Source: a virus. From it: a stretch of 35,425 nucleotides of DNA. The DNA is taken from positions 1 through 35,425 of the IMG/VR virus record IMGVR_UViG_3300029309_000130; one strand, 5' to 3'. The position numbers were made by a program, and so were the translations under genes. The notes under the pieces are model-generated. The model did no database searches. It had not been told where the DNA came from and saw nothing but the letters and a program-made list of their open reading frames with translations. This document shows, piece by piece, positions 3,490 to 34,961 of this stretch (positions are counted from its first letter, which is position 1; each line of letters opens with the position of its first letter).

Positions 3490-5124
3490 TTAATATGAAC
3501 CACCATCTATGTTGAAGCTGGAGGCACTTTCATCTTCTAAGAATGTAACCAAATCAGATAATGCAACTTGTTTCATAGTTCCAGCGTCATTACAAATAAA
3601 CCTATCTGCTGCTGCTAAAGTCGTTGAAGTTGCTGACGTTCCACCATCAATCAAGTTGATTTCAGCAGTTGTGGCTGTAACTCCATCTAGGATATTTAGT
3701 TCTGACGCAGTAGATGTTACTCCATCTAAAATGTTTAATTCAGCAGTAGTTGATGTTACTCCGTCTAGGATATTTAATTCTGAAGCAGTAGCCGTAACTC
3801 CATCTAAGATATTCAGTTCAGAAGCAGTAGCAGTCACACCATCAAGAATGTTTAACTCAGCAGTTGTAACAGTAGCTCCATCTAATATTGCAATTTCTGT
3901 TGAAGTCAAAGCAGCTAAAGCAGCAGATCCACCTGATTGACAAGAAGATAAATTTGTTAAGTCTGTTGCAGATGCCTGTGCCCCTAATGATGCTCTTGCT
4001 GTAGCTCCAGATTCAAGAACAAAGTTAGATCCATCTCCAACAATAAAGTTGCTATCTGTTGGAGTTAAACCTGCAATATCAGATAACTGCTGGTCAAAAG
4101 CCTGAATATTTGTACCGATGGCTAATCCGAGGGCTGTTCTTGCTGCGCTGGCACTTGTAGCTCCTGTCCCTCCATCAGAAATTGCTAAAGTGCCTGTTAT
4201 AGAACTAGCAGCAAGATCAACAGCAATTTCAGCAGATTCAATAACAAGTCCACCATTTGATTTAAGGTCAGCAGATAAAGTATTACCAGATTTCTCTAAA
4301 CCATTTCCTGCTGTGATTTGACCAGCACCAGAAAACTGCGAGAAAACCAAATTATTTGTCCCTACAACGGCAGATCCTTTGTTAGAAGTACAAACAAAAC
4401 CATTCTCAGCATTTACTGTTCCCTGTTCTATAAAAACAAATGCACCAGCAGCGTCAGCACCAGTAGCTAAATCATCTACTCTGGTTGGTGCACCAGAAGC
4501 ATTGACTTTGTAAATACCATTCTCTGTCTGAGTACTTTGGTCTTTGATAAGTATTCTGTCATTAGTTGATAAAGAAACACCATCAATCGTTGATCCATTA
4601 GCAAACGCAGAGGACAATGTTCCATTCGCAGTAGTTGTGGCAACCACAGAATCTTTAACATCTAATCCTTGAGAAACACCATCTACATAAGATTTTGAAG
4701 CAGCATCAGTAGAAGCAGTAGGTGTAGCTAAATTTGTTATTTTTTGACTATTTAGAGAAACAGCAGCAGAGGGAGCCGTCATCTGATCTAGTCTCGAAGT
4801 TCTTACTTGTGTATCGAAATCACTAACTTTTGCTGCTGTTAACGTTGGTATATCTGCTGCTACGAGTGATCTAAATGTAGGTGCAGCAGCACTTCCCGTT
4901 GTAGGACCAGCTAATACAATATTTGCGTTTCTAGTTGTTGCTTTATCAAAAAATGCTCCTTTACCACCAATCGGAATAATGCTCGTAGCGGAACCTCCTG
5001 CTCCCCCTGTGCCCGTACCATAGATTAGAACTTCATCGCCTTCTCTAAACGCAACTTCAGCATTTTCTAATGACCCTGGGTTTGATGATCCAGTAGATCT
5101 TTTAATTCTAATTGTATTAGCCAT
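3490..5124 (-). CDS. Tail fibre protein with ELNILDG repeats (544 aa)
   Basis: The N-terminus (MANTIRIKRSTGSSNPGSLE, AEVAFREGDEVLIYGTG) resembles the attachment module of the other fibre. A central domain (about residues 140-270) has the pattern GLDVKDSVVATTTANGT, NDRILIKDQSTQTENGIYKV and AFVFIEQGTVNAENGFV, a widespread phage fibre module. Near the C-terminus a 13-residue unit, ELNILDGVTATAS and variants, is repeated about six or seven times, followed by a short cap. It overlaps the next small gene by one base at 5124 (TGATGG). It is likely a trimeric receptor-binding fibre, and the repeat number may tune its length. Confidence 0.85.
   Translation of the reverse strand: MANTIRIKRSTGSSNPGSLENAEVAFREGDEVLIYGTGTGGAGGSATSIIPIGGKGAFFDKATTRNANIVLAGPTTGSAAAPTFRSLVAADIPTLTAAKVSDFDTQVRTSRLDQMTAPSAAVSLNSQKITNLATPTASTDAASKSYVDGVSQGLDVKDSVVATTTANGTLSSAFANGSTIDGVSLSTNDRILIKDQSTQTENGIYKVNASGAPTRVDDLATGADAAGAFVFIEQGTVNAENGFVCTSNKGSAVVGTNNLVFSQFSGAGQITAGNGLEKSGNTLSADLKSNGGLVIESAEIAVDLAASSITGTLAISDGGTGATSASAARTALGLAIGTNIQAFDQQLSDIAGLTPTDSNFIVGDGSNFVLESGATARASLGAQASATDLTNLSSCQSGGSAALAALTSTEIAILDGATVTTAELNILDGVTATASELNILDGVTATASELNILDGVTSTTAELNILDGVTSTASELNILDGVTATTAEINLIDGGTSATSTTLAAADRFICNDAGTMKQVALSDLVTFLEDESASSFNIDGGSY
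3650..3900 (-). repeat. 39-bp tandem repeat array coding for ELNILDGVT units
   Basis: About six to seven imperfect 39-bp units encode ELNILDGVTATAS, ELNILDGVTSTTA and similar, ending in EINLIDGG. Units differ in third-codon positions, which shows selection on the peptide. Arrays of this motif are common in fibres of marine phages. Confidence 0.85.
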
Positions 5125-6545: not shown

Positions 6546-9500
6546 TTACCCTCCTTTGCCGAAACCAACAGCACTGTAGGTAAAGTTCCTATCAATACTA
6601 GCATTACTTGAGTTTTTAAAGTGAACTGTAAAACCAGTTCCAGATATACTGCTAAGTTCAAAGTAATCGCCTGATGCCATATTCTGTGGAGAAATATTAA
6701 CAGATGGCAAGAAACTGTTAAGATTGCCTAGCCCAGACGTTCCAACAAAAAATGGTGCTGTAAATGTAACTGCCTTTGCTCCTGCTCCTGACGCTATGAC
6801 AGCCGATTGTTCCGTTCTTGAAGGCATTGTTGCTGTATAGCCCGCTTGTTGTAAATTCATATTTTGAGCTACATCTGCTGTATTAATATTAATTCTAAAT
6901 TGAAATCCTCTCCCCTTAAACGTACCATTTGCAAAGTCATTAAAAGACCCATAAGTAGGTGAACTACTAGGATTATCAGTTGTGGTGCGAACAGATATTT
7001 TTGCGTTTACATCATTAGCAACTGTGCCATCAAAATCTGTCCAAGTGTCTATATTATCTGTTCTATTATCAAATTGATCTCCTACATAAAAACCAACTCC
7101 TTGAAAGTGACGTTTTAAGACAAGTGAGAATGTAGCTCCCAAATCAAGAGTATCTACAAAGTCATAAGTTCCACTAGCATTTGCACTTGGATCTATTAAT
7201 TTTAATCCTCCTAAAGTTGAATCATAAACAACATTTGACTTTGTTCCATTGAAAGGTGTTCCGTCTGTATCTTCTCTGTCAGTTTTGACAGTAATAGAAT
7301 CTAAAATATCAACAAGAGAAAGAGCTACACTTGCTGGATTTGCACTAAATCTACCGCCATCATCTTGAAATTTAAGTAAGTAAGTTCCTGCCAGGGCAGG
7401 AGCTATAACATCTGTCGCATTACCAGCTACAGCTTCAATAACATCTTGTGCAGATTGGAATGAAGCAGATCCTCCAGTTTGATTTGTGTGCCTCACATAA
7501 ACACGACCACCATGTAAAACGTCAGTAGCAACAGCTTGTGTAAATCGTAGCCTTACAAACTGTTCATTAATTGGTTCTATCGTTAACCCAGAAACATCTT
7601 CTGGTATTGCAGTTTTACCTAAAGCAATAATTGATGTTTCAGTAAAATTAGAAGATAATTGTCCTACGGAATTATAAGAAAATACTTGAACTGTATAATT
7701 TCCTTTTGCGGTATCTAAAATTTCAAAATCACTACTAAAAACAACTTGTGAAATATAATTACCATTTTCTAATTTGTAATTTACAAGGTATTGAGTAACA
7801 CCCAAAACAGGCTGCCAATCTATAATTAATTTACTTCTGGCTATATTATTTATAACTACTGTTTGTTCTGTAATTGTTAAATTGCTTGGTGGTAATGCAG
7901 GGGCATTTAAAATAGATATAGTTCGTGTGGGTAATGATGTTCCATTTTCAATAAAAGCATATTTACCTTCAACGTAAGATAAGGCTGTAATTACATAATT
8001 AATATCATCTTGTTCCTCTACTTGAATAACTCTAAATAATTGAGTTTGAAGAGATGTACTAGAAAGTAAATATGGTGCATTTGTGTTTGGTGCGGAACTA
8101 AATGCAGAAGCAGTTGTTCCATCAGGTTTTGTAACACTATTAACAGTGACAACTGCACCAACAACATTAGATATTGAGCCTACCTCTACAGTTCCGTCAG
8201 ATAAAATAACACTTATTGTAGAAGCAGGAAAATTTGTTTGTTCTACGGCATCAATAGTAATAGTTGTAGTCGTTGCAGCTACTACACGACCACCTCTTCT
8301 AGCTCCTGCTCTTACTGGATCATTTATTTCAATAACAGAACCAGGTCTAACAACAATTCCAGAATCTATTGAAGCTGAAAAAGTAACAGTTTCACTTTCA
8401 TTTTGTTCAGCAAAAAGAATTGCACGAGCTAATCTCGCAGCTTGATTACGAGAAGTACAGGCAAATGCTTTTACTTGTTTGATAATCGTTCCAAGTTTTG
8501 ATATTGCTGTTGCATCTTCTACTACTTCAAAATCCACTTCTTTTGAATCCATGTTGAAGTAACTAACAGAAACAACGCTATGCCTAGTTTTTAAACTACT
8601 CCCTGAGTATGCAAATCCACCCTCTCCCACATTGGCTAAATTAAATAAATAACTGGCTGATGTTTCTTTGTCCTGGGATATGGTAATTGAACCAGCAGAC
8701 CAAATTGGCATACATCTCATAACACCAGCTAGATCATTTATTGCTGCAAATGCTTCTTTAGGACTTTGAATATTTACATTACAACTAAACCTAGCTTCTG
8801 TTGCACCTGATCCTGTGCCGTCATCTACTAATTCATTTGCATATTTACTGGCAGCCACAAAACTAAATAAATCTAAATTACTGTCAGTAACATGATCTCC
8901 CAAGCCATATCTAGTGTTCGTAAGCAAATCAAGTAAACACATCGCAGGGCAATTTGTGTAAACGGCAGCACCCATTACACCGTTAAATATATAACCACTT
9001 GGATAAACTATCCTGCCTGTACCATTATCCACAGTTGGAGTACCAGAACTAGACGCTCCTGCTCCTGGTATTCTTACTTTCACTCCTCTAATACGATACT
9101 TTCTTGTAGGAATACGATTAAACTGTTTACTATCTAAGCGAAGAGCAACATAAGCACTATTAGCATAAGTTGAACTATTATCTATAACTTCTTGAAGGCT
9201 GGTAAATTGAAAAGCATTTACTCTTGCTGCATCTGTACTATCTGCTGTAACTCTAACCACTCGTACATCAACGGGAAAATCGCCTGTGATATTTATTCTG
9301 TGATCTCTAGCATAAGCATCTGCTGTTCTACCACTAACAGAAGTGCTTATAATGTCTGTAAATCCACCAGAATTATATTGAACTTGTATTTTATATTCGA
9401 CAGTATCTCCTCGAATATCGCCATCATCTTCGGCTACTTGTATTTGAGGCCAAGTTAAAGTAACAATTATTGCATCTACGTCTGTATTTGTAACTTGTCT

Positions 9501-16609: not shown

Positions 16610-17692
16610 TTAAGACTTAAGTCCATTAGATAATGGTGTGTTTACAAAAATTTCAACCATAGGAATTTGGTCGATGTCATAAGTAACACCATAGTTAGAA
16701 CCTGTGCGAAGTGCAGCATTAGTTGGGTTGTCAGCAGCGTTTGTCCACTTAGTTCCCATAACGTGATAAGCACTATGGTAGTCAACAGACATAACATCTT
16801 GCTTAGATAAGATGTTTCTTTCTGCTTCAATACCTAGCTCAGACTGTTGACCTTCAAGAATTGTTCCTGACTTCATTAAGTAGCAACGGAACTCTTGACG
16901 ATTACCACTAGATGTTGGATCGTTGATGTTTACCTGAGAGTCGATTACAACTGTGCAACCAGCAAACTGACCGATTGATCTGTCAGTTACACCAACTCCA
17001 CCACCACCCCAGGTAATGCCAGTACCAGTTGATAAGGCAGATGTTGAGAATGTTAGTAGACCTACCTGGTATAGATAGTAAGCAACCGCAGGGTGAACTA
17101 TAAGAAGATCAAGTTCCTCTCCTCTTTCTCCTATAAGAGAACGAGCTTCTGCAACAGTAGCAGCAGTAAGATAGTTTGCTTCGGCACTAGCACTAGAACT
17201 ACCAACTTGCTTCTCAAGGCGGTGACCATTAAGAGCAGTATGGAATAAACCAGTTAGAGTTTCAAATAAACGAACAGAGTTCAATTTATTGATAGCATCT
17301 GCAAGTTGATTTCTGATGTGACCCATTGGATCTTCGCCAGCAGCCAAAATAGCTACATCATCAACAGCATAAGCAAAACCTCTGTGACAGATAGTTGCAA
17401 CTTGCGTATCTGTACCGATTTTTTGAGGTGTTAGATAACCAGCACCACTTGTTCCCCATGTACCTGTACCATCTAAAATTTCTTCAGTTGGTGCGATTGG
17501 GTTAAATTCTGGAACCTGTATTCTTGTTCCTCCTGCTGTTGCATCAAGCAAAGCATTACGAACTACAGCACCGGACTGTATAAATAGGCTACGCTCTTTG
17601 ATAGCTTGAGAAACGTAAGCACTAAAGTTATTTCTTTTAACGATGTCCGCTAATAAGACACCGCCAGTATAATTCTGAAACGGAGCAGCCAT
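16610..17692 (-). CDS. Major capsid protein (360 aa)
   Basis: The product contains QNYTGGVLLADIVKRNNFSA, IQVPEFNPIAPTEEI, AAGEDPMGHIRNQLADAINK, ELDLLIVHPAVAYYLYQVGL, the segment AGCTVVIDSQV and NILSKQDVMSVDYHSAYHVM. These are typical of one HK97-fold capsid family found in phages with DUF4055 portals. It follows the scaffold gene and is bracketed by a structured leader and a terminator, as expected for the most abundant virion protein. There is no obvious delta domain and no recognised protease nearby, so maturation cleavage is uncertain. Confidence 0.88.
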   Translation of the reverse strand: MAAPFQNYTGGVLLADIVKRNNFSAYVSQAIKERSLFIQSGAVVRNALLDATAGGTRIQVPEFNPIAPTEEILDGTGTWGTSGAGYLTPQKIGTDTQVATICHRGFAYAVDDVAILAAGEDPMGHIRNQLADAINKLNSVRLFETLTGLFHTALNGHRLEKQVGSSSASAEANYLTAATVAEARSLIGERGEELDLLIVHPAVAYYLYQVGLLTFSTSALSTGTGITWGGGGVGVTDRSIGQFAGCTVVIDSQVNINDPTSSGNRQEFRCYLMKSGTILEGQQSELGIEAERNILSKQDVMSVDYHSAYHVMGTKWTNAADNPTNAALRTGSNYGVTYDIDQIPMVEIFVNTPLSNGLKS

Positions 17693-23915: not shown

Positions 23916-24079
23916 ATCTAAAATTTTTCTTACATCATTTTATTACTTTTTTCCCTGGAGAACTTTCACAATAGCAACCGCACCAATAGCTAATTAAAAT
24001 TAGTAATTTACAAGACAACAAGAAAGAAAAGAAAAAACGCAAATAATAAAATCACATAGCAATAATTATTTTATGACAT
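23916..24079. other. AT-rich stretch without a gene
   Basis: Apart from A and T runs I see no open frame, promoter or strong hairpin here. It separates the GC-rich patch from the terminator of the minus-strand small-ORF operon. Confidence 0.6.
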
Positions 24080-24109
24080 AAAAAAACTCTTCCTGGAATA
24101 GAAAGAGTT
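24080..24109 (-). terminator. Intrinsic terminator of the small-ORF operon
   Basis: On the minus strand AACTCTT pairs with AAGAGTT across an 11-base loop, followed by TTTTTAT. It lies about 22 bases beyond the last small ORF (stop at 24132). Confidence 0.7.
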
Positions 24110-24131
24110 AATAATTTGTTTTTGATCTTGT

Positions 24132-24257
24132 TTAACTATCTTTAATTTTTAAAAATAGTTTTAGTTGTTTTTCTCCATTGTATAAACTTGTTTTACTTCC
24201 TGATAAAGAATAATTTTTTGGCATTGTTGCAAGCCATTTGATAAGTTCAGAATCCAT
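24132..24257 (-). CDS. Tiny ORF (41 aa) in a coupled operon
   Basis: The frame reads MDSELIKWLATMPKNYSLSG, then SKTSLYNGEKQLKLFLKIKD-S. The ATG follows the previous stop as TAA-TT-ATG. Short N-terminal helix, then mixed strand/charged end. No family recognised. The junction shared with its neighbours and the terminator right after it support translation. Confidence 0.55.
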   Translation of the reverse strand: MDSELIKWLATMPKNYSLSGSKTSLYNGEKQLKLFLKIKDS

Positions 24258-24259
24258 AA

Positions 24260-24433
24260 TTAATAATTAATTAGTAAATACTTCCTGGTAAAAGAATCCT
24301 TGAAGTGTAGTTGGTTATCTGTTGCATACATAAACATATAGTTGTCTATGTTATTTTTAAAATAAACAGATTTGGACTTAGCAATTTCAAAAGCTAGTCT
24401 TGGGTTGTCAAAAAATTTGTGATTGTACTTCAT
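24260..24433 (-). CDS. Tiny ORF (57 aa)
   Basis: The frame reads MKYNHKFFDNPRLAFEIAKS, then a YFKNNIDNYMFMYATDNQ segment and an aromatic/basic end. It is joined to both neighbours by TAA-TT-ATG junctions. Rich in Asn, Phe and Tyr; unknown function. Confidence 0.55.
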   Translation of the reverse strand: MKYNHKFFDNPRLAFEIAKSKSVYFKNNIDNYMFMYATDNQLHFKDSFTRKYLLINY

Positions 24434-24435
24434 AA

Positions 24436-24588
24436 TTAACTATTTTGTAAATAAGTAGAATATGAAGAAATAACAGAATCTATTTTTTCTGTTCTTTGTT
24501 GTAAGTCTTGTTTGATGTTGTTAGCAATACTAACAAAAGGTAGCAGAGTTAAAACAATCGCTGCTAGGTATAGTGAAAATAGTTTCAT
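24436..24588 (-). CDS. Small membrane or secreted protein (50 aa)
   Basis: The first 22 residues (MKLFSLYLAAIVLTLLPFVS) form a positively started hydrophobic segment with a possible AxA-like end (SIANN). That would be a signal peptide or an N-terminal anchor. The remaining 28 residues are a polar helix (IKQDLQQRTEKIDSVISSY). First gene of the three-ORF operon behind the palindromic operator. A membrane role such as superinfection exclusion or lysis control is conceivable but unsupported. Confidence 0.6.
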   Translation of the reverse strand: MKLFSLYLAAIVLTLLPFVSIANNIKQDLQQRTEKIDSVISSYSTYLQNS

Positions 24589-24654
24589 TTGTTTTTTTAT
24601 TGGTAGGAACTTTTTTATGTTCCCTTACTATTAATTATAAACAATAAAAATTTA

Positions 24655-24671
24655 CTATTGTACTACAATAG
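24655..24671. promoter_or_regulatory. Perfect 17-bp palindromic operator
   Basis: CTATTGTA-C-TACAATAG is a perfect inverted repeat. It sits between the acidic-protein gene and the three-ORF operon. On the minus strand its TACAAT would serve as -10 with TTGTAA 18 bases upstream. A GGAAC/GTTCC hairpin lies between it and the 24588 start. Confidence 0.75.
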
Positions 24672-24715
24672 AAATACTTGTTACAATTATTAATAATTAA
24701 TATCTATCTATTTAT

Positions 24716-25183
24716 TTAATTATTATCTTCCTGGAATAGTTCAGAAAAATCTTTATTTAATATCATATTCAACATATCAAAAATAATTTCATATTGAGTT
24801 AATCTGATAATGTCAAATACATTCATATTACACTCATTAATATTTAATTCTCTTAATTCTTTTTGATAACCTCTATTAATATCATCAGATAACCAGGAAA
24901 CTAAATTATAATTATAAATATCAACTTGACTTTCTACAATTTCATGTATGTTATCTTCTATTGTTTCAAAATCGTATTGATTAACAACAGAATCTAACAA
25001 ATAAAAAATTGTATTGTATCTCCAATTATTAGGAGACTCTTCCTGGTGTAGTTCATAAATAAAAGATTGATAGATATTCTTTTTATCTTCTTTTAGTTGG
25101 ATAATGTCACTACATGGATCAGTCTCAAAAGCATCTAAAAAATTAATAAGATGTTCTTTTTGTGTTGTTGTTGTTAATTTCAT
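24716..25183 (-). CDS. Acidic protein of unknown function (155 aa)
   Basis: Strongly acidic and helical, with LINFLDAFETDPCSDIIQLK near the start, NWRYNTIFYLLDSVVNQYDF in the middle, then IEDNIHEIVESQVDIYNYN and a final MNMVFD-like helix set. Acidic phage proteins of this size are sometimes DNA mimics or inhibitors of host enzymes, but there is no sequence evidence for that here. A TTTACA-N17-TACAAT promoter is placed 65 bases upstream. It follows the clamp gene on the same strand. Confidence 0.6.
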   Translation of the reverse strand: MKLTTTTQKEHLINFLDAFETDPCSDIIQLKEDKKNIYQSFIYELHQEESPNNWRYNTIFYLLDSVVNQYDFETIEDNIHEIVESQVDIYNYNLVSWLSDDINRGYQKELRELNINECNMNVFDIIRLTQYEIIFDMLNMILNKDFSELFQEDNN

Positions 25184-25244
25184 TTTTGTTTTTAAATTAG
25201 TTTATTTAATAGGAAGCAATAAAAAAAAAATCTTCCTTTGTTTT

Positions 25245-25275
25245 CTATTGTAGTACAAAAGAAGATTTATGTAAA
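25245..25275 (-). promoter_or_regulatory. Promoter TTTACA-N17-TACAAT with operator
   Basis: Minus strand: TTTACA (25275-25270), 17 bases, TACAAT (25252-25247). The operator CTATTGTA-G-TACAAAAG (25245-25261, one mismatch from a perfect palindrome) covers the -10. It should drive the acidic-protein gene. Confidence 0.7.
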
Positions 25276-25295
25276 CTATAAATTAAAAAAGTTTT

Positions 25296-25952
25296 TTATT
25301 TTCTTTTTATTATAGGCATTATTAAATAATTAAGAACTGGATTAAATCCCTCTAAACTTTCAAAAGGATTTTTAATATCCCAGGTAGCAGTAATTACAAA
25401 AGGAGATTTTGAATGATTACCATTAAAAGTTATAGATTTTTCTTTAGATAATCTTTTTACCTGATTACAAAATTGTCCTATATAATCACAATTAAAGGAA
25501 AATTCACTCTTAAAATCATTTGTGAACTTATCAGGTATTAACTGTTCAATGTGTGGATAATTTCCCTCGATTTGTTGATAATGAATGGAAGATATAAAAA
25601 TTTCTTCATTCATAAAAGTAATTAAATTATCAGTAATTAATACTTTAGTTGCGTTTTTAATCTGACTTTTAAAAACCGAACCAGGAATAGTTATATTTTT
25701 ATTTAATTTAAATCCCAATTCATTATTAGGGAATTTAAAATAAAATAATCTATGCCCATCTGTTGATTCAATACTAATATTTTTATCATCAACTTTTAAA
25801 TGAATACCAGTTAAAAGTTGTTTTGAATAATCCTTAGATACAAATTGACTAGCTATTCTTATTACTTCATAAGGTAGGCAACCAATTTTTGTTTCATTCT
25901 CATATATTGCATAGGGACTTGAAACTTGTTTTGTAGTAATTGTTTGAGACAT
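25296..25952 (-). CDS. Compact DnaN-type sliding clamp (218 aa)
   Basis: Signatures of the bacterial beta clamp are clear. LLTGIHLKVDDKNISIESTDGHR-like residues 46-68 include the T64-D65-G66-H67-R68-L69 loop. GNYPHIEQLIP (130-140) matches the beta-clamp GxFPDYxxVIP, and the C-terminus NYLIMPIIKRK matches the YVVMPMRL end. Cellular clamps have about 370 residues in three domains. Here the N-terminal domain and part of the last are missing, leaving two-domain size, as in T4 gp45 or PCNA. It is likely the processivity factor for the phage polymerase. Confidence 0.72.
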   Translation of the reverse strand: MSQTITTKQVSSPYAIYENETKIGCLPYEVIRIASQFVSKDYSKQLLTGIHLKVDDKNISIESTDGHRLFYFKFPNNELGFKLNKNITIPGSVFKSQIKNATKVLITDNLITFMNEEIFISSIHYQQIEGNYPHIEQLIPDKFTNDFKSEFSFNCDYIGQFCNQVKRLSKEKSITFNGNHSKSPFVITATWDIKNPFESLEGFNPVLNYLIMPIIKRK

Positions 25953-26127
25953 TTTTTTTTTAGTAAGAAGTGAAATACTATTCTTCTTAATTTGTATTGT
26001 ATAACATTAATAAATAACTTGCAACCAATAAATTTAATTATATATATGAAAATGAGAATTTTTTTATTTGCAAATTACGTTTTCTCATGTAATATAGTAG
26101 AGCACTTAGTTTTTTAGACTAACCAAA
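25953..26127. promoter_or_regulatory. Divergent early control region
   Basis: This AT-rich interval separates the minus-strand clamp gene from the plus-strand early operon. For the plus strand, TTGCAA (26068-26073) lies 16 bases before TAATAT and 19 before TATAGT (26093-26098), followed by AGAGC. Inverted arms ATGAGAA (26052-26058) and TTCTCAT (26082-26088) flank the -35. TATTGTATAACATTA near 25996 is a poor match to the operator. Confidence 0.5.
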
Positions 26128-29571: not shown

Positions 29572-29604
29572 GAACACATAAGTCCACAGTAAGTATTGTA
29601 TCAC

Positions 29605-31980
29605 ATGAATCTGCAACAGTTTGTAAAGAAGTTACCAAAACATCTTGTTTACGCTCCTATATATCGCAAAGGAGTTGAAATAAAATCTAAGGAAGGAAAG
29701 ATTTTAGAGTCAACAGGTAAAAATCCTTTTGGAGAATCTTATGAAAGACAATTTTCTCCTGATGATGTTACTTATGTACTAGATAAGTACCCTGATCGTT
29801 TTGGTGCTGTTGGACTATTTACTGGTATCAGAGGTAAGGGTCTAGTAATTCTTGATGTAGATAAAAATTTGGCGATCCATAAAAAGAAATGGGGAGATAC
29901 TTTAGATGGTGCTCCCTGTATCACAAGTACAAAAAAGAATGCTGCTAAATATATATTTAAAGTTCCAGAAGAATTATGGTCTAGCGTTAAAGGTCGTATG
30001 CTTTCTGAGCAGACTTCTACTTGTTACGAAATACTTTTTAATAAAAGACAAGGATTAATTTTTGGTGCATATCCAGGTTCTACAACTTCATCAGAAGGTA
30101 ATTATGGCTTTAAAGGAGATTTAGATAATATTCCTACCGCTCCAGATTGGTTGTTAGCTGAGATGAAATCTCTTAAAGCTAATGAAGGTAAAACTGGTTT
30201 CTTAAAAAATAGAAGTGGACTAAATCTTTCAGATAGAACTGAAGATGAAAGAGGACAAATAATTCAAGAGTGTTTAAGTGTTATTCCAACTAAAGGTGCT
30301 GGTAGTAGAGAGCATTGGTTACACGTTGGTATGTCTATCCATTCTGAATTACCAAATGATCTTGGATTAGAACTTTGGTCAGTATGGTCTAAAAGCGATC
30401 CTGATTACATTAACGAATGGGATAAGCATAATCCATGCGAAGCTGTTTGGAAGTCCTTTAAAGGCTCTGGAAGGGGCATAGGATCACTAATACATGATGC
30501 TGATGAAGTCGATCCAAAAAGGTTACGTTTTACTCCAGTAAGTTTAGATATTGTTCAGAAAGCTCAAAACGAGCTAATGGTCAGGACTAGACGAGTAAAA
30601 ATGTCTTTCCAAGATGTGAAGAAAGAATATATGCGTATCTGTGAAGAGGTTGCCGATCCAGGAGAACAAGATTTTTTAATGCACCAGTTAGCTGTTGATA
30701 ATGAGTTTAAAGATTTGGAAAGACTTGAAAGCTGTTTAATGAGTAGTGAAGCATTTGATTTGGGTAGTGAAGAAATGACTGCTTCTGAATTAGATGCTGA
30801 AGATTTATCTCGTAGTTATGTAATACCTGAAATACTACCTACCCCTGCTGTATTCCTACTTTATGGTGCTGGTGGAGATGGTAAATCAATGGCTGCGTGG
30901 GCATTAGCTAAACACATATCATTAGGTTTACCCTTTGAAGTTCAGAACAATATCGTTCCAATCAAAAAAGGTAAGGTTTTGATTCTTAATGCTGACCAGC
31001 CAAAAGTTCAGTTGCGTGAACAATTAAGAGAACAGGATTACAAAATGGATAACAATACTGTTGTTATTAATGGTTTTCAAATTAAACGTGAATATTATTT
31101 TGCTCAACTAATTAAAAAACACAAACCAACATTAGTTGTTATTGATTCACTAATTGGTTCTTCTGCTGGTAGAGCGTTTGATGAAAACAAAAGTTCTTTC
31201 GCATCTCCTTTATACAGACTCACCAATAATAATGGTCATAGTTTTCCTGCTACAACCATTCTTGTTATTCATCACGCTAATAAGCAAGGTGGGTTTAGAG
31301 GTACAAGTTCTATCAGAGATGCTGTAGATGAAACCTGGAAACTTAGCAAACCAGATAAAGAATTATCCGAACAGCTAGGAACTAATACAAGAATTATTAG
31401 AGTTGAAAAGAGTAGATTTAGTCGTATGGGTAGTTGCCTGTTACTAAAACAATTAAGTGATCTTAGCTTTGAATTGAAAGATTACAAACCAAAGGTAGAA
31501 AATTCTTCTCCTGCTTCCATAATTGATCGCATACTTGAAAAACTTAGAACTGTTTACCCAGAAACTAGATCCAGGATAGATCTTAATGCTGATCCATTAA
31601 TAGGTGGTAATGTTACTGCTATTAGAAAATCGTTAGAAAGATTAGTTGATAGAGGATTAATTCAAATTTGGGAACAAAAACCTTCAGTAAATGGTGGTCG
31701 ACCCACTAACTACTACAAAGCTATCCTCGTGCGGGGAGACAAAAAATCTGTCGCATTGAATGGAAAACCTAGTGATAACAACGATTTAACAATGCGACAG
31801 GTAAATAAAAAAGAAAGCTGTCACATTGGTACGGACAAAGCAATGCGACAGGAAGAGGAAAAAAATAAGTGTCGCATTGATAAACCCTTACCACAACAGC
31901 AATCTATTACCAATGCGACAGGTGATTTATATTCCCCCGTGCGAGAAAACAAAAAAGATGCGTGGAAAGCTTGGGAATGA
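29605..31980 (+). CDS. Primase-helicase fusion (Prim-Pol, PriCT, RepA-like helicase)
   Basis: ATG at 29605 gives 791 residues. The Prim-Pol part has FGAVGLFTGIRGKGLVILDV with D83 and D85 (ILDVDK) and ends PDWLLAEM near residue 190. The His usual in this family after the second strand is not seen (KNAAKYIF). Residues about 213-300 (RGQIIQECLSVIPTKGAGSR, SREHWLHVGMSIHSE, WKSFKGSGRGIGSLIHDA) match PriCT-2. The helicase has Walker A GAGGDGKS near 421-428, TLVVIDSLIGSS and TTILVIHHANKQGGFRGTSS. A winged-helix-like part and a low-complexity tail follow. The tail is encoded by the iteron block. It is the main replication initiator and fork protein. Confidence 0.85.
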   Translation: MNLQQFVKKLPKHLVYAPIYRKGVEIKSKEGKILESTGKNPFGESYERQFSPDDVTYVLDKYPDRFGAVGLFTGIRGKGLVILDVDKNLAIHKKKWGDTLDGAPCITSTKKNAAKYIFKVPEELWSSVKGRMLSEQTSTCYEILFNKRQGLIFGAYPGSTTSSEGNYGFKGDLDNIPTAPDWLLAEMKSLKANEGKTGFLKNRSGLNLSDRTEDERGQIIQECLSVIPTKGAGSREHWLHVGMSIHSELPNDLGLELWSVWSKSDPDYINEWDKHNPCEAVWKSFKGSGRGIGSLIHDADEVDPKRLRFTPVSLDIVQKAQNELMVRTRRVKMSFQDVKKEYMRICEEVADPGEQDFLMHQLAVDNEFKDLERLESCLMSSEAFDLGSEEMTASELDAEDLSRSYVIPEILPTPAVFLLYGAGGDGKSMAAWALAKHISLGLPFEVQNNIVPIKKGKVLILNADQPKVQLREQLREQDYKMDNNTVVINGFQIKREYYFAQLIKKHKPTLVVIDSLIGSSAGRAFDENKSSFASPLYRLTNNNGHSFPATTILVIHHANKQGGFRGTSSIRDAVDETWKLSKPDKELSEQLGTNTRIIRVEKSRFSRMGSCLLLKQLSDLSFELKDYKPKVENSSPASIIDRILEKLRTVYPETRSRIDLNADPLIGGNVTAIRKSLERLVDRGLIQIWEQKPSVNGGRPTNYYKAILVRGDKKSVALNGKPSDNNDLTMRQVNKKESCHIGTDKAMRQEEEKNKCRIDKPLPQQQSITNATGDLYSPVRENKKDAWKAWE
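31725..31746 (+). repeat. Left flanking direct repeat of the iteron block
   Basis: CCTCGTGCGGGGAGAC followed by six A. The copy at 31935-31956 shares 18 of 22 bases, in the same orientation, 210 bases away. In the protein this gives LVRGDKK and PVRENKK, so the copies are also in the same reading frame. Confidence 0.6.
31748..31921. repeat. Six 11-bp iterons CAATGCGACAG in alternating orientation (candidate origin)
   Basis: Copies: CTGTCGCATTG 31748-31758 (reverse), CAATGCGACAG 31790-31800, CTGTCACATTG 31818-31828 (reverse, one change), CAATGCGACAG 31841-31851, TGTCGCATTG 31870-31879 (reverse, 10 bases) and CAATGCGACAG 31911-31921. They form three reverse-forward pairs. The motif is kept in different reading frames (TMRQ, AMRQ, but NAT in the last), so it is the DNA that is conserved, not the peptide. 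Lambda has its origin iterons in the O gene in the same way. Confidence 0.85.
31935..31956 (+). repeat. Right flanking direct repeat of the iteron block
   Basis: CCCCGTGCGAGAAAAC followed by six A. See the left copy at 31725-31746; all four differences are transitions (C/T or A/G). Confidence 0.6.
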
Positions 31981-32219
31981 GAGATACAAAAGTAATAATT
32001 TATTGCCATAAACGACAAAAAGACGCTCCATTAGCTTCAGTTCGTTACACAAAATATGACGATCTAAATAGAGTAATAGATGTTGACCAAATTGATTATG
32101 AGGATAGAAATTATTTTCATAGCGAGGTCTTACAGGCTATAACTTGCGGAGTAGATGTTTTAATTTACACTCATTTAGATGGAACGTCCTTGCAAAAGAA
32201 AATAGAAAAGTGGACATAA
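31977..32219 (+). CDS. Small protein between primase and polymerase (80 aa)
   Basis: ATG at 31977 overlaps the primase stop (ATGA). The product reads MRDTKVIIYCHKRQKDAPLA, then VIDVDQIDYEDRNYFHSEVL and GVDVLIYTHLDGTSLQKKIE. Compact alpha/beta pattern with two hydrophobic strands (KVIIYC, VLIYTH). Unknown; it may be a replication accessory given its position. Its 3' end carries the -35 of the polymerase promoter. Confidence 0.6.
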   Translation: MRDTKVIIYCHKRQKDAPLASVRYTKYDDLNRVIDVDQIDYEDRNYFHSEVLQAITCGVDVLIYTHLDGTSLQKKIEKWT

Positions 32220-32241
32220 TTTTATTATTGTAATACAATAA
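32211..32241 (+). promoter_or_regulatory. Promoter TGGACA-N17-TACAAT with perfect palindrome
   Basis: TGGACA (32211-32216), 17 bases, TACAAT (32234-32239). The perfect palindrome TTATTGTA-A-TACAATAA (32225-32241) covers the -10. The start site would be near 32246 and the polymerase ATG is at 32268. Confidence 0.75.
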
Positions 32242-32267
32242 CAGATATAAATTTATTGTCGCTACCC

Positions 32268-34100
32268 ATGACACAACCAAAATATTCCGTATTTTACGGT
32301 ATCAAGGAATTGCATCGCTTACATTCAGCATCAAGTCTTGCATTTGATACAGAAACATTACAGCTTCAACCAGAAAAAGGTAAGTTAAGATTACTTCAAC
32401 TCGGTTCCTATACCTTACGAACCATAGTTGTAATTGACTGTTTTGAACTAACAGAAAATAACTGGAACTACTTACAAAGGTTCTTTACTAATGGAGCTAG
32501 ATTTTGGCTCGCACATAACGCAGTTTTTGATCTTGGCTGGCTCCAAGAACATGATATTGATGTTCGAGGGAAGGTTAGATGTAGTATGTTAGCAAGCCGT
32601 CTACTTACTAATGGCATACCAAAAGCTCAACATGGTTTAGCTCATGTTGCAAAAAGATATTTAGATATTGATGTATCTAAAGAACAACAGTCTTCAAATT
32701 GGGCTGCTGATGTTTTGAGTAAGGCTCAACTTGAATATGCTGCTAAAGATATAGAAGTATTACTTGAGTTAGATCAAATACTAGATCATAAATTACAAAG
32801 TGATCAGCTTATGGAAGCCTACACCTTAGAGTGTTTAGCTTTACCAGCTATGGCTCAAATGTGGAGAACTGGTCTTCCCTGGAATCGCTCTGCACTTAAG
32901 CAAAGACGTATTGATTATGAAGATGATTTAAAAGAAATGTCTAAAGAGTTTTTGCGTGAACTTGATAATGCTTTACCAGAAACAGATAAGTTACCACGAG
33001 AATGTGATGGATCATTTAATCTTCGTGCGAAAGACGAAGGATCTATAAGATTAGGTACAAAAAAGTATGCTGGATTCAATATTAATAGCCCTAAACAATT
33101 ATTAGAAAAGTTTACTTTAATACTCGGTACTCCACCTGTTGACGCTACTGGTAAACCTAGTGCGTCAAGACAGACATTAAAGGCTTTTGCTGCTGATTCT
33201 GAGATTATTCAAACTTATTTGGTTTGGAAGAAAACAGAAAAACGTAGACAAATGATTACCAGTATTTTGGATAAGCTTGATGACAAAGGTTATGTTAAAG
33301 CTTCTTATATGCAGCTAGGAGCAGATACAGGCCGTATGTCTAGTATTAAACCTAATAACCAACAGATACCTAGAGATTCTGAGTTCAGACAATGTGTAGA
33401 AGCTCCAGAAGGTTGGAAGATAGTTGATGCTGACTTTTCACAAATGGAATTACGTCTTGCTGCTGCATTAGCAAAAGATGAAAATATGATACAGGCTTTT
33501 ATAAAAGGAGAAGATTTGCATGACTATACTGCTGAGAAAATGGGTTGTGATAGACAGATAGCTAAATCTGCTAATTTTGGTTTGCTTTACGGAGCAGGAG
33601 CAGAAGGTTTGCGTAACTACGCTGGTAGTAGTGGTGTTTTGATGACGCTCGAAGAAGCAAAAACAGTTCGTGATAACTGGTTGCGTACCTATAAAGGTGT
33701 CCACGCTTGGCAGAATAAAAATTATCAGATTGCAAAGAACTCTAATGGTAATGAATGGGCTGAAACTCGTATTCCTTTATCGAATATGCGTAGGTATCTT
33801 AAGGGCGATCTTAACAGAGTAACTGTTAGATGTAACACACCAATTCAAGGTGCAGGTGCTGCCATATTAAAATGCGCATTAGGAAACTTATGGATAGAAG
33901 TTAAAGAGTGTGGCGAAGATAAAGTAAAGATTGCAGCAGCAGTACATGATGAATTAATACTTTTAGTTAAAGAGCAGTTTGCAGACGCATGGGCTAAGAA
34001 ACTAAAAGATATTATGGAAAATGCAGAATCAAAATGGTTAGGTAGAGTTCCTGCTGTTGCTGAAGTATCTGTAGGAAACACTTGGGAGGAAACACACTAA
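32268..34100 (+). CDS. Family A DNA polymerase with 3'-5' exonuclease (610 aa)
   Basis: The exonuclease is intact: Exo I D27-T-E29 (LAFDTETL), Exo II HNAVFDLGWL, Exo III YAAKDIEVLLEL. Polymerase motif A is VDADFSQMELRLAA (near 387), motif B CDRQIAKSANFGLLYGAG (near 432) and motif C VHDELILL (near 559-561). The position equal to E. coli Pol I 762 is Phe. The finger segment between HDYTAEK and the motif B Lys is shorter than usual, with only MGCDRQIA. There is no obvious thioredoxin-binding insertion as in T7, so the clamp could be the processivity factor. ATG at 32268 was chosen because the promoter start lies at about 32246. Confidence 0.93.
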   Translation: MTQPKYSVFYGIKELHRLHSASSLAFDTETLQLQPEKGKLRLLQLGSYTLRTIVVIDCFELTENNWNYLQRFFTNGARFWLAHNAVFDLGWLQEHDIDVRGKVRCSMLASRLLTNGIPKAQHGLAHVAKRYLDIDVSKEQQSSNWAADVLSKAQLEYAAKDIEVLLELDQILDHKLQSDQLMEAYTLECLALPAMAQMWRTGLPWNRSALKQRRIDYEDDLKEMSKEFLRELDNALPETDKLPRECDGSFNLRAKDEGSIRLGTKKYAGFNINSPKQLLEKFTLILGTPPVDATGKPSASRQTLKAFAADSEIIQTYLVWKKTEKRRQMITSILDKLDDKGYVKASYMQLGADTGRMSSIKPNNQQIPRDSEFRQCVEAPEGWKIVDADFSQMELRLAAALAKDENMIQAFIKGEDLHDYTAEKMGCDRQIAKSANFGLLYGAGAEGLRNYAGSSGVLMTLEEAKTVRDNWLRTYKGVHAWQNKNYQIAKNSNGNEWAETRIPLSNMRRYLKGDLNRVTVRCNTPIQGAGAAILKCALGNLWIEVKECGEDKVKIAAAVHDELILLVKEQFADAWAKKLKDIMENAESKWLGRVPAVAEVSVGNTWEETH

Positions 34101-34709: not shown

Positions 34710-34961
34710 ATGGCACTTAAACACGGAAACAAAAATTATTACCAAGTTCTCATAGATCCACATAGATCAAAACTTATAGAAAAAGCAGCAGAAAAAAAGG
34801 GTATAAAAGGTACAGCCTGGGTTAGAAAGGCTGCATACAGTCAGTTAGAACGTGAATTTTCTAGTGCGGAGTACAAAATAGCTGAAGCAAAAGATGAATT
34901 ATTGTGGAGAGAGTCAGTACAAAGAAGAATAGATGGAAGAAAAGCTAATTCTGAAACTTAA
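34710..34961 (+). CDS. Small ribbon-helix-helix-like protein (83 aa)
   Basis: NKNYYQVLIDPHRSKLIEKA, KKGIKGTAWVRKAAYSQLER: a strand (YYQVLID) followed by two helices, which fits a ribbon-helix-helix DNA-binding domain with residues 8-45. A charged C-terminal helix follows. AGTAGTACAA just upstream (34687-34696) resembles a half operator. Possibly a second regulator. Confidence 0.65.
   Translation: MALKHGNKNYYQVLIDPHRSKLIEKAAEKKGIKGTAWVRKAAYSQLEREFSSAEYKIAEAKDELLWRESVQRRIDGRKANSET

Follow-up and report, generated by a model that had tools for sequence, protein, structure and literature searches.

Many phages and plasmids encode primases that carry a fused helicase and a C-terminal winged helix. 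In the SaPI/PICI rep-ori systems, a helicase-initiator with a C-terminal DNA-binding domain is followed immediately 3' by a short-iteron origin made of two iteron sets (PMC6092414, PMC7581432). The iterons bound by SaPI/PICI and SCCmec initiators are located downstream of the initiator gene itself, and a two-hexamer mode of action has been proposed for SaPI Rep and Cch2 (PMC6092414, PMC7581432). pRN1 ORF904 and its counterpart in phage BIP-1 are primase-helicases with a C-terminal winged helix, and the pRN1 origin lies 3' of the gene, within 166 bp (about 170 bp) of the stop codon (PMC4234260). The PrimQH family combines a primase, PriCT, a P-loop ATPase (including the RepA type), and a C-terminal winged helix (WH) that, by the authors' suggestion, might recognize the origin (PMC5862659). 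In this study, we analyzed the virus record IMGVR_UViG_3300029309_000130 from IMG/VR (positions 1 to 35,425; this whole stretch of 35,425 nucleotides is termed the window). An array of short repeats (iterons) in the 3' part of its primase-helicase gene had been described as a likely replication origin in a first-pass annotation made from the letters alone. That proposal is largely supported: the array is very probably the replication origin of this marine phage, or its initiator-loading part, bound by the C-terminal winged helix of the primase-helicase itself.

Layout of the iteron array

Six copies of CAATGCGACAG are located at 31748-31921, in the order - + - + - +. A motif search re-found them exactly as first described: three reverse-forward pairs, comprising four exact copies, one with a single change, and one 10-base copy, in different reading frames of the primase-helicase gene. 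The features of the locus are as follows.

29596-31980, plus strand: primase-helicase and putative replication initiator, with Prim-Pol, PriCT-2, AAA_25, a C-terminal winged helix, and a low-complexity tail (Pfam, homologues)
31504-31734, plus strand: winged-helix (wHTH) DNA-binding domain of the putative initiator (AlphaFold2 prediction, structural matches)
about 31612-31650, plus strand: recognition helix of the wHTH, AIRKSLERLVDRG
31726-31945, no strand: whole candidate origin, two mirrored half-arrays with outer inverted flanks, axis near 31835
31726-31739, plus strand: left outer flank CTCGTGCGGGGAGA, one arm of an outer GC-rich inverted repeat (31730-31739 invariant in ten close relatives)
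31748-31758, minus strand: iteron 1, exact copy
31771-31789, plus strand: mid element in the left outer pair, AGTGATAACAACGATTTAA; the consensus across the family, built from these data, is about AGTGNTGGAACGGGATYTG
31790-31800, plus strand: iteron 2, exact copy
31818-31828, minus strand: iteron 3, one change, CAATGTGACAG
31841-31851, plus strand: iteron 4, exact copy
31869-31879, minus strand: iteron 5, 10-base copy, last base differs, CAATGCGACAC
31911-31921, plus strand: iteron 6, exact copy
31932-31945, plus strand: right outer flank TTCCCCCGTGCGAG, counterpart of the left flank in the outer GC-rich inverted repeat

Start-to-start spacing of the iterons is 42-28-23-28-42. Given this spacing and the alternating orientation, the array is mirror-symmetric, and its layout equals its own reverse complement. 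The symmetry of the spacing and the GC-rich flanks at 31726-31739 and 31932-31945, which carry the inverted layout beyond the six iterons, had been missed earlier. With at most one mismatch to CAATGCGACAG, seven matches were found in the window versus 0.33 expected from shuffling; the seventh lies outside the array, at 7412. No further exact copy outside the array was present in the 35,425-base record, and neither the genome nor its relatives showed a similar density elsewhere. Several copies of a short specific sequence are thus clustered at one place in the replicon, as in iteron-type origins.

Selection on the DNA

Codon positions were compared in a gap-free alignment of ten close relatives of the window. 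Inside the sites, 8% of third-position columns were variable, versus 70% in the gene body (Fisher p = 2e-9). Spacer variability was 48, 33, and 40% at codon positions 1, 2, and 3, a loss of codon structure; spacer positions 1 and 2 together were 40% variable, versus 12% in the gene body (p = 4e-10). The low-complexity tail of the protein is the open reading frame (ORF) read through the array. Because the sites are frozen at third positions and the spacers lack codon constraint, this tail is read through but not conserved as protein. In other lineages the homologous array is non-coding, which argues that selection acts on DNA. Judged from these alignments, the array is under selection as DNA rather than as peptide, as had been argued earlier from the different reading frames. 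In close relatives, the iterons are kept and the peptide is not.

Conservation of the array in relatives

Homologues were collected from two viral scans and one genome scan (about 43-98% protein identity) and yielded 109 distinct 3' regions. Exact motif copies in related records of 15-43 kb sit clustered. All close relatives with the full region (group 1) keep six sites at the same spacing, except L019 and L056, which carry a 12-bp frame-keeping insertion at the array centre. Group 2 (about 50% identity) has its stop codon 42 nt past the wHTH, and a mirror-symmetric array of eight sites with the motif TTGTCCCAT occupies the equivalent place in non-coding DNA.

The TGTC core recurs at equivalent places across the 109 regions. 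At least two outer inverted pairs (TGTC core, ~50 bp) directly follow the wHTH in 105 of them, with a TGTC-to-TGTC span of 48-52 bp; the first site usually lies 20-24 nt past the wHTH codons. Array length ranges from 162 to 240 bp across the family and differs mostly via the central gap. A mirror partner within 3 bp was found for 234 of 264 sites in 33 representatives, against a null of 130 (standard deviation 5.6, maximum 144) obtained by shuffling gaps and strands.

Depending on the lineage, the stop codon falls before, inside, or after the array, at 36 to 384 nt past the wHTH. On a helicase-region tree, whose long branches call for caution, four changes in the coding state of the array are needed; the candidate origin has thus switched repeatedly between lying in coding and in non-coding DNA. 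The genes 3' of the array vary by lineage, and the array stays with the initiator gene. No comparable repeats were detected downstream of the partial homologues in S-CBS4, S-EIVl, and the Anabaena plasmid pANACY.03; therefore, the array is a feature of the full-length family.

Each outer pair encloses a mid element near AGTGNTGGAACGGGATYTG, which many lineages have in both halves; the consensus score of this element is partly circular. The left-half element is read in different frames by lineage (SDGTGS in L095, VMERDL in L098). Some lineages carry the mid element in direct and others in inverted orientation, for which reason a simple tandem-unit model of the array was dropped. CGCGCG-rich inverted flanks occur at both array ends in many loci (e.g., L092, L095, and L120) and are conserved even where the right flank is non-coding. 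Central insertions measure 11 bp in a non-coding lineage (L045 against L046) and 12 bp in a coding lineage (L019 against L001). Both lengths approximate one helical turn, a hint of a phasing constraint.

The putative initiator and its recognition helix

The ORF at 29596-31980 matched PF09250 (Prim-Pol, barely over the cutoff), PF08707 (PriCT-2), and PF13481 (AAA_25) in Pfam. The wHTH model (AlphaFold2, 42 homologues) had a mean predicted local distance difference test (pLDDT) score of 80.6, around 90 in the core, with the order H-H-H-E-E. In structural comparison, DNA-binding proteins with a winged helix made up most of the top matches (Z up to 10.2); as this fold is common, the result backs the fold class alone. 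Foldseek gave no match below 0.001 for the model, and the domain is therefore assigned to a fold class and to no family. By fold prediction and structural comparison, the primase-helicase thus carries a DNA-binding domain of a sequence-specific kind, as an iteron-binding initiator would.

The motif differs by lineage (TGTCGCATTG in group 1, TGTCCCAT in group 2, TGTCCAGG, TGTCCCCC), and the recognition helix differs alongside it. The AIHKS lineage has the motif TGTCCAGG, with TGTCCA, and the AIRKS..Q helix pairs with TGTCCC. In the window's own lineage, AIRKS or AIKKS followed by LERL is accompanied by TGTCGC or TGTCAC. The ATKK and AIKKA (A[IT]KK) lineages L093, L127/L130, and L146 have TGTCCCC, and L092 (AIKKS) retains TGTCCCA. 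This joint change is suggestive, not proof, of site reading by the wHTH. In the PLE system, where the initiator DNA-binding domain and the origin also vary together between lineages, joint change of RepA and its origin is experimentally established (PMC8263062). The natural motif-helix variants found here lend themselves to a specificity-swap experiment.

Proposed origin function

For binding, origin function, melting, and fork direction, we infer the following mechanism. The wHTH would bind TGTC-core sites next to or inside its own gene. The sites would act as two mirrored half-arrays, each with one or two inner sites besides an outer inverted pair whose TGTC cores lie about 50 bp apart. Initiator oligomers would gather on both halves, and the fused RecA-type helicase and primase would open the DNA and prime at the array. 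As the mirror symmetry suggests, two complexes may face in opposite directions. A bolder version, which we hold tentatively and rate at somewhat less than even chances, is a novel architecture of mirror-image half-origins. In it, two oppositely facing primase-helicase complexes would allow bidirectional replication from one self-loading protein, in a large, mainly marine phage family whose motif and helix drift together and whose origin moves in and out of coding sequence.

Several observations weigh against origin function. The full-length protein model was poor (pLDDT 41.6) and too poor for use. The agreement between motif and helix is at clade level in a tree with long branches, so it rests on few independent events. 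The AT-rich stretch noted earlier near 32200-32260 is real, but relatives have no conserved AT-rich melting element in the array centre or adjoining it. In the PICI/SaPI systems an AT-rich region lies between the iteron sets, whereas here the central gap (9-78 bp) has no consistent AT enrichment over the gene body. GC skew, mapped as the first-pass annotation had proposed, switches near 23 kb, away from the array, where gene direction also switches, and it is negative again at 28-29 kb, where minus-strand genes lie. Codon-3 skew left versus right of the array was inconsistent across three genomes. Because the skew tracks gene strand and carries no origin signal beyond it, it was rejected as origin evidence and neither supports nor refutes an origin.

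The array could instead be a control site through which the bound initiator regulates its own gene or the copy number, comparable to P4 crr or plasmid inc iterons, with forks starting elsewhere. Initiator-bound site arrays often regulate too, and such a role would fit the missing AT-rich melting element. However, the array lies at the 3' end of the gene and not over its promoter, a promoter scan of 31300-32400 gave no promoter-like match within it, and neither the window nor related records contained a second array. A position 3' of the gene is also where known initiators with a DNA-binding domain at the C terminus have their origin (PMC7581432, PMC6092414, PMC4234260), and we regard a pure control site as unlikely. 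It is less likely still that the array works as an extruded DNA stem-loop whose pairing, rather than site sequence, is recognized. pRN1 does use a 100-nt stem-loop after its primase gene (PMC4234260), the single-stranded DNA of the array folds far better than shuffles (z -6.3), and folding is strong in other lineages too (RNA parameters). Yet any set of inverted sites folds, and conservation covers the exact motif, beyond pairing. The variable base of sites 3 and 4 is mismatched in 8 of 10 close relatives, with no compensatory change of the kind that a pRN1-type origin would show, and mirror partners resemble each other only a little more than other opposite pairs do (0.77 against 0.74, p = 0.02).

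Folding was also considered as a sign of an RNA element in the primase transcript, such as a terminator, an attenuator, or a structured 3' end. The RNA fold is strong (z -7.9), but by z-score the antisense strand equals or exceeds the sense strand in folding in nearly all lineages tested, a pattern that points to symmetric DNA rather than an RNA element. The array had no Rfam match and contained no intrinsic terminator, and a search for tRNA found none; we consider an RNA element very improbable. Repeats of the encoded low-complexity peptide, selected as protein, would be compatible with the ORF, which in the window and close relatives stays open across the array. That explanation has a negligible chance of being correct: copies in several frames and on both strands and spacers free of codon constraint speak against it, and the non-coding arrays of group 2 and other lineages already refute it.

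Comparison with known systems

As a candidate origin, the array is well supported and of a known general kind, in which iterons sit where the initiator gene ends. With SaPI/PICI, it shares a C-terminal DNA-binding domain on the helicase-initiator, the position of the iterons, and the two iteron sets. It differs in having an AAA_25 (RecA-type) helicase instead of DUF927 or Primase_Cterm/D5, in lacking an AT-rich centre, and in that it can fall inside coding sequence (PMC6092414, PMC7581432). In SCCmec, the C-terminal domain of the helicase Cch2 binds repeats downstream of its own gene at a putative origin, as is predicted here, but that site has three short iterons and separate inverted repeats instead of 6-8 mirrored sites, and the primase is fused to the helicase only in the present family (PMC7581432). 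The resemblance to pRN1 ORF904 and phage BIP-1 is in the protein and, for pRN1, the origin position; pRN1 has a stem-loop origin without iterons and an SF3 helicase (PMC4234260). The window protein follows the primase-PriCT-ATPase-WH order given for PrimQH, for which the available portion of that source describes no origin (PMC5862659). A simple-pattern search for the PrimQH catalytic signature found no QxH in the window protein, and ILDVD was present. The PLE differs in its RepA_N initiator and in its ori, an intergenic region of its own that holds three ~30-bp semi-palindromic iterons (PMC8263062). The earlier comparison with lambda ori inside O is looser than those with SaPI/PICI, SCCmec, and pRN1, in which the origin lies just past the end of the initiator gene. 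The array had also been placed between primase-helicase and polymerase; an 85-aa ORF intervenes between it and the DNA polymerase.

No earlier description of the array or of its mirror-symmetric layout was found in open-access literature. The fused helicase is of a class unlike that of characterized examples, and candidate origin sequence has been absorbed into coding sequence. The array offers a concrete, short, testable candidate origin for one primase-helicase-wHTH family.

Genome surroundings

The intervening ORF (31962-32219, plus strand) had no Pfam or PHROG match; its small family (ASVRYTKYDD) reappears 3' of the array in several lineages. An 83-aa protein (34710-34961, plus strand; family HGNKxYYQVLID) also recurs close downstream and is the next gene after the array in group 2. 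The region 24001-26000, between the late minus-strand and early plus-strand genes, is very AT-rich (GC 0.23) and is a rival place for regulatory or origin sequence. A 218-aa ORF at 25296-25952 (minus strand) matched the central domain of DNA polymerase III beta (sliding clamp; E 5e-8), representing a phage-encoded clamp. The capsid-like protein at 16610-17692 (minus strand) is 93% identical to that of Marine virus AG-345-A17, from a Pacific single-cell genome. At 3490-5124 (minus strand), a structural-looking protein contains the internal tandem peptide repeat ELNILDGVTAT.
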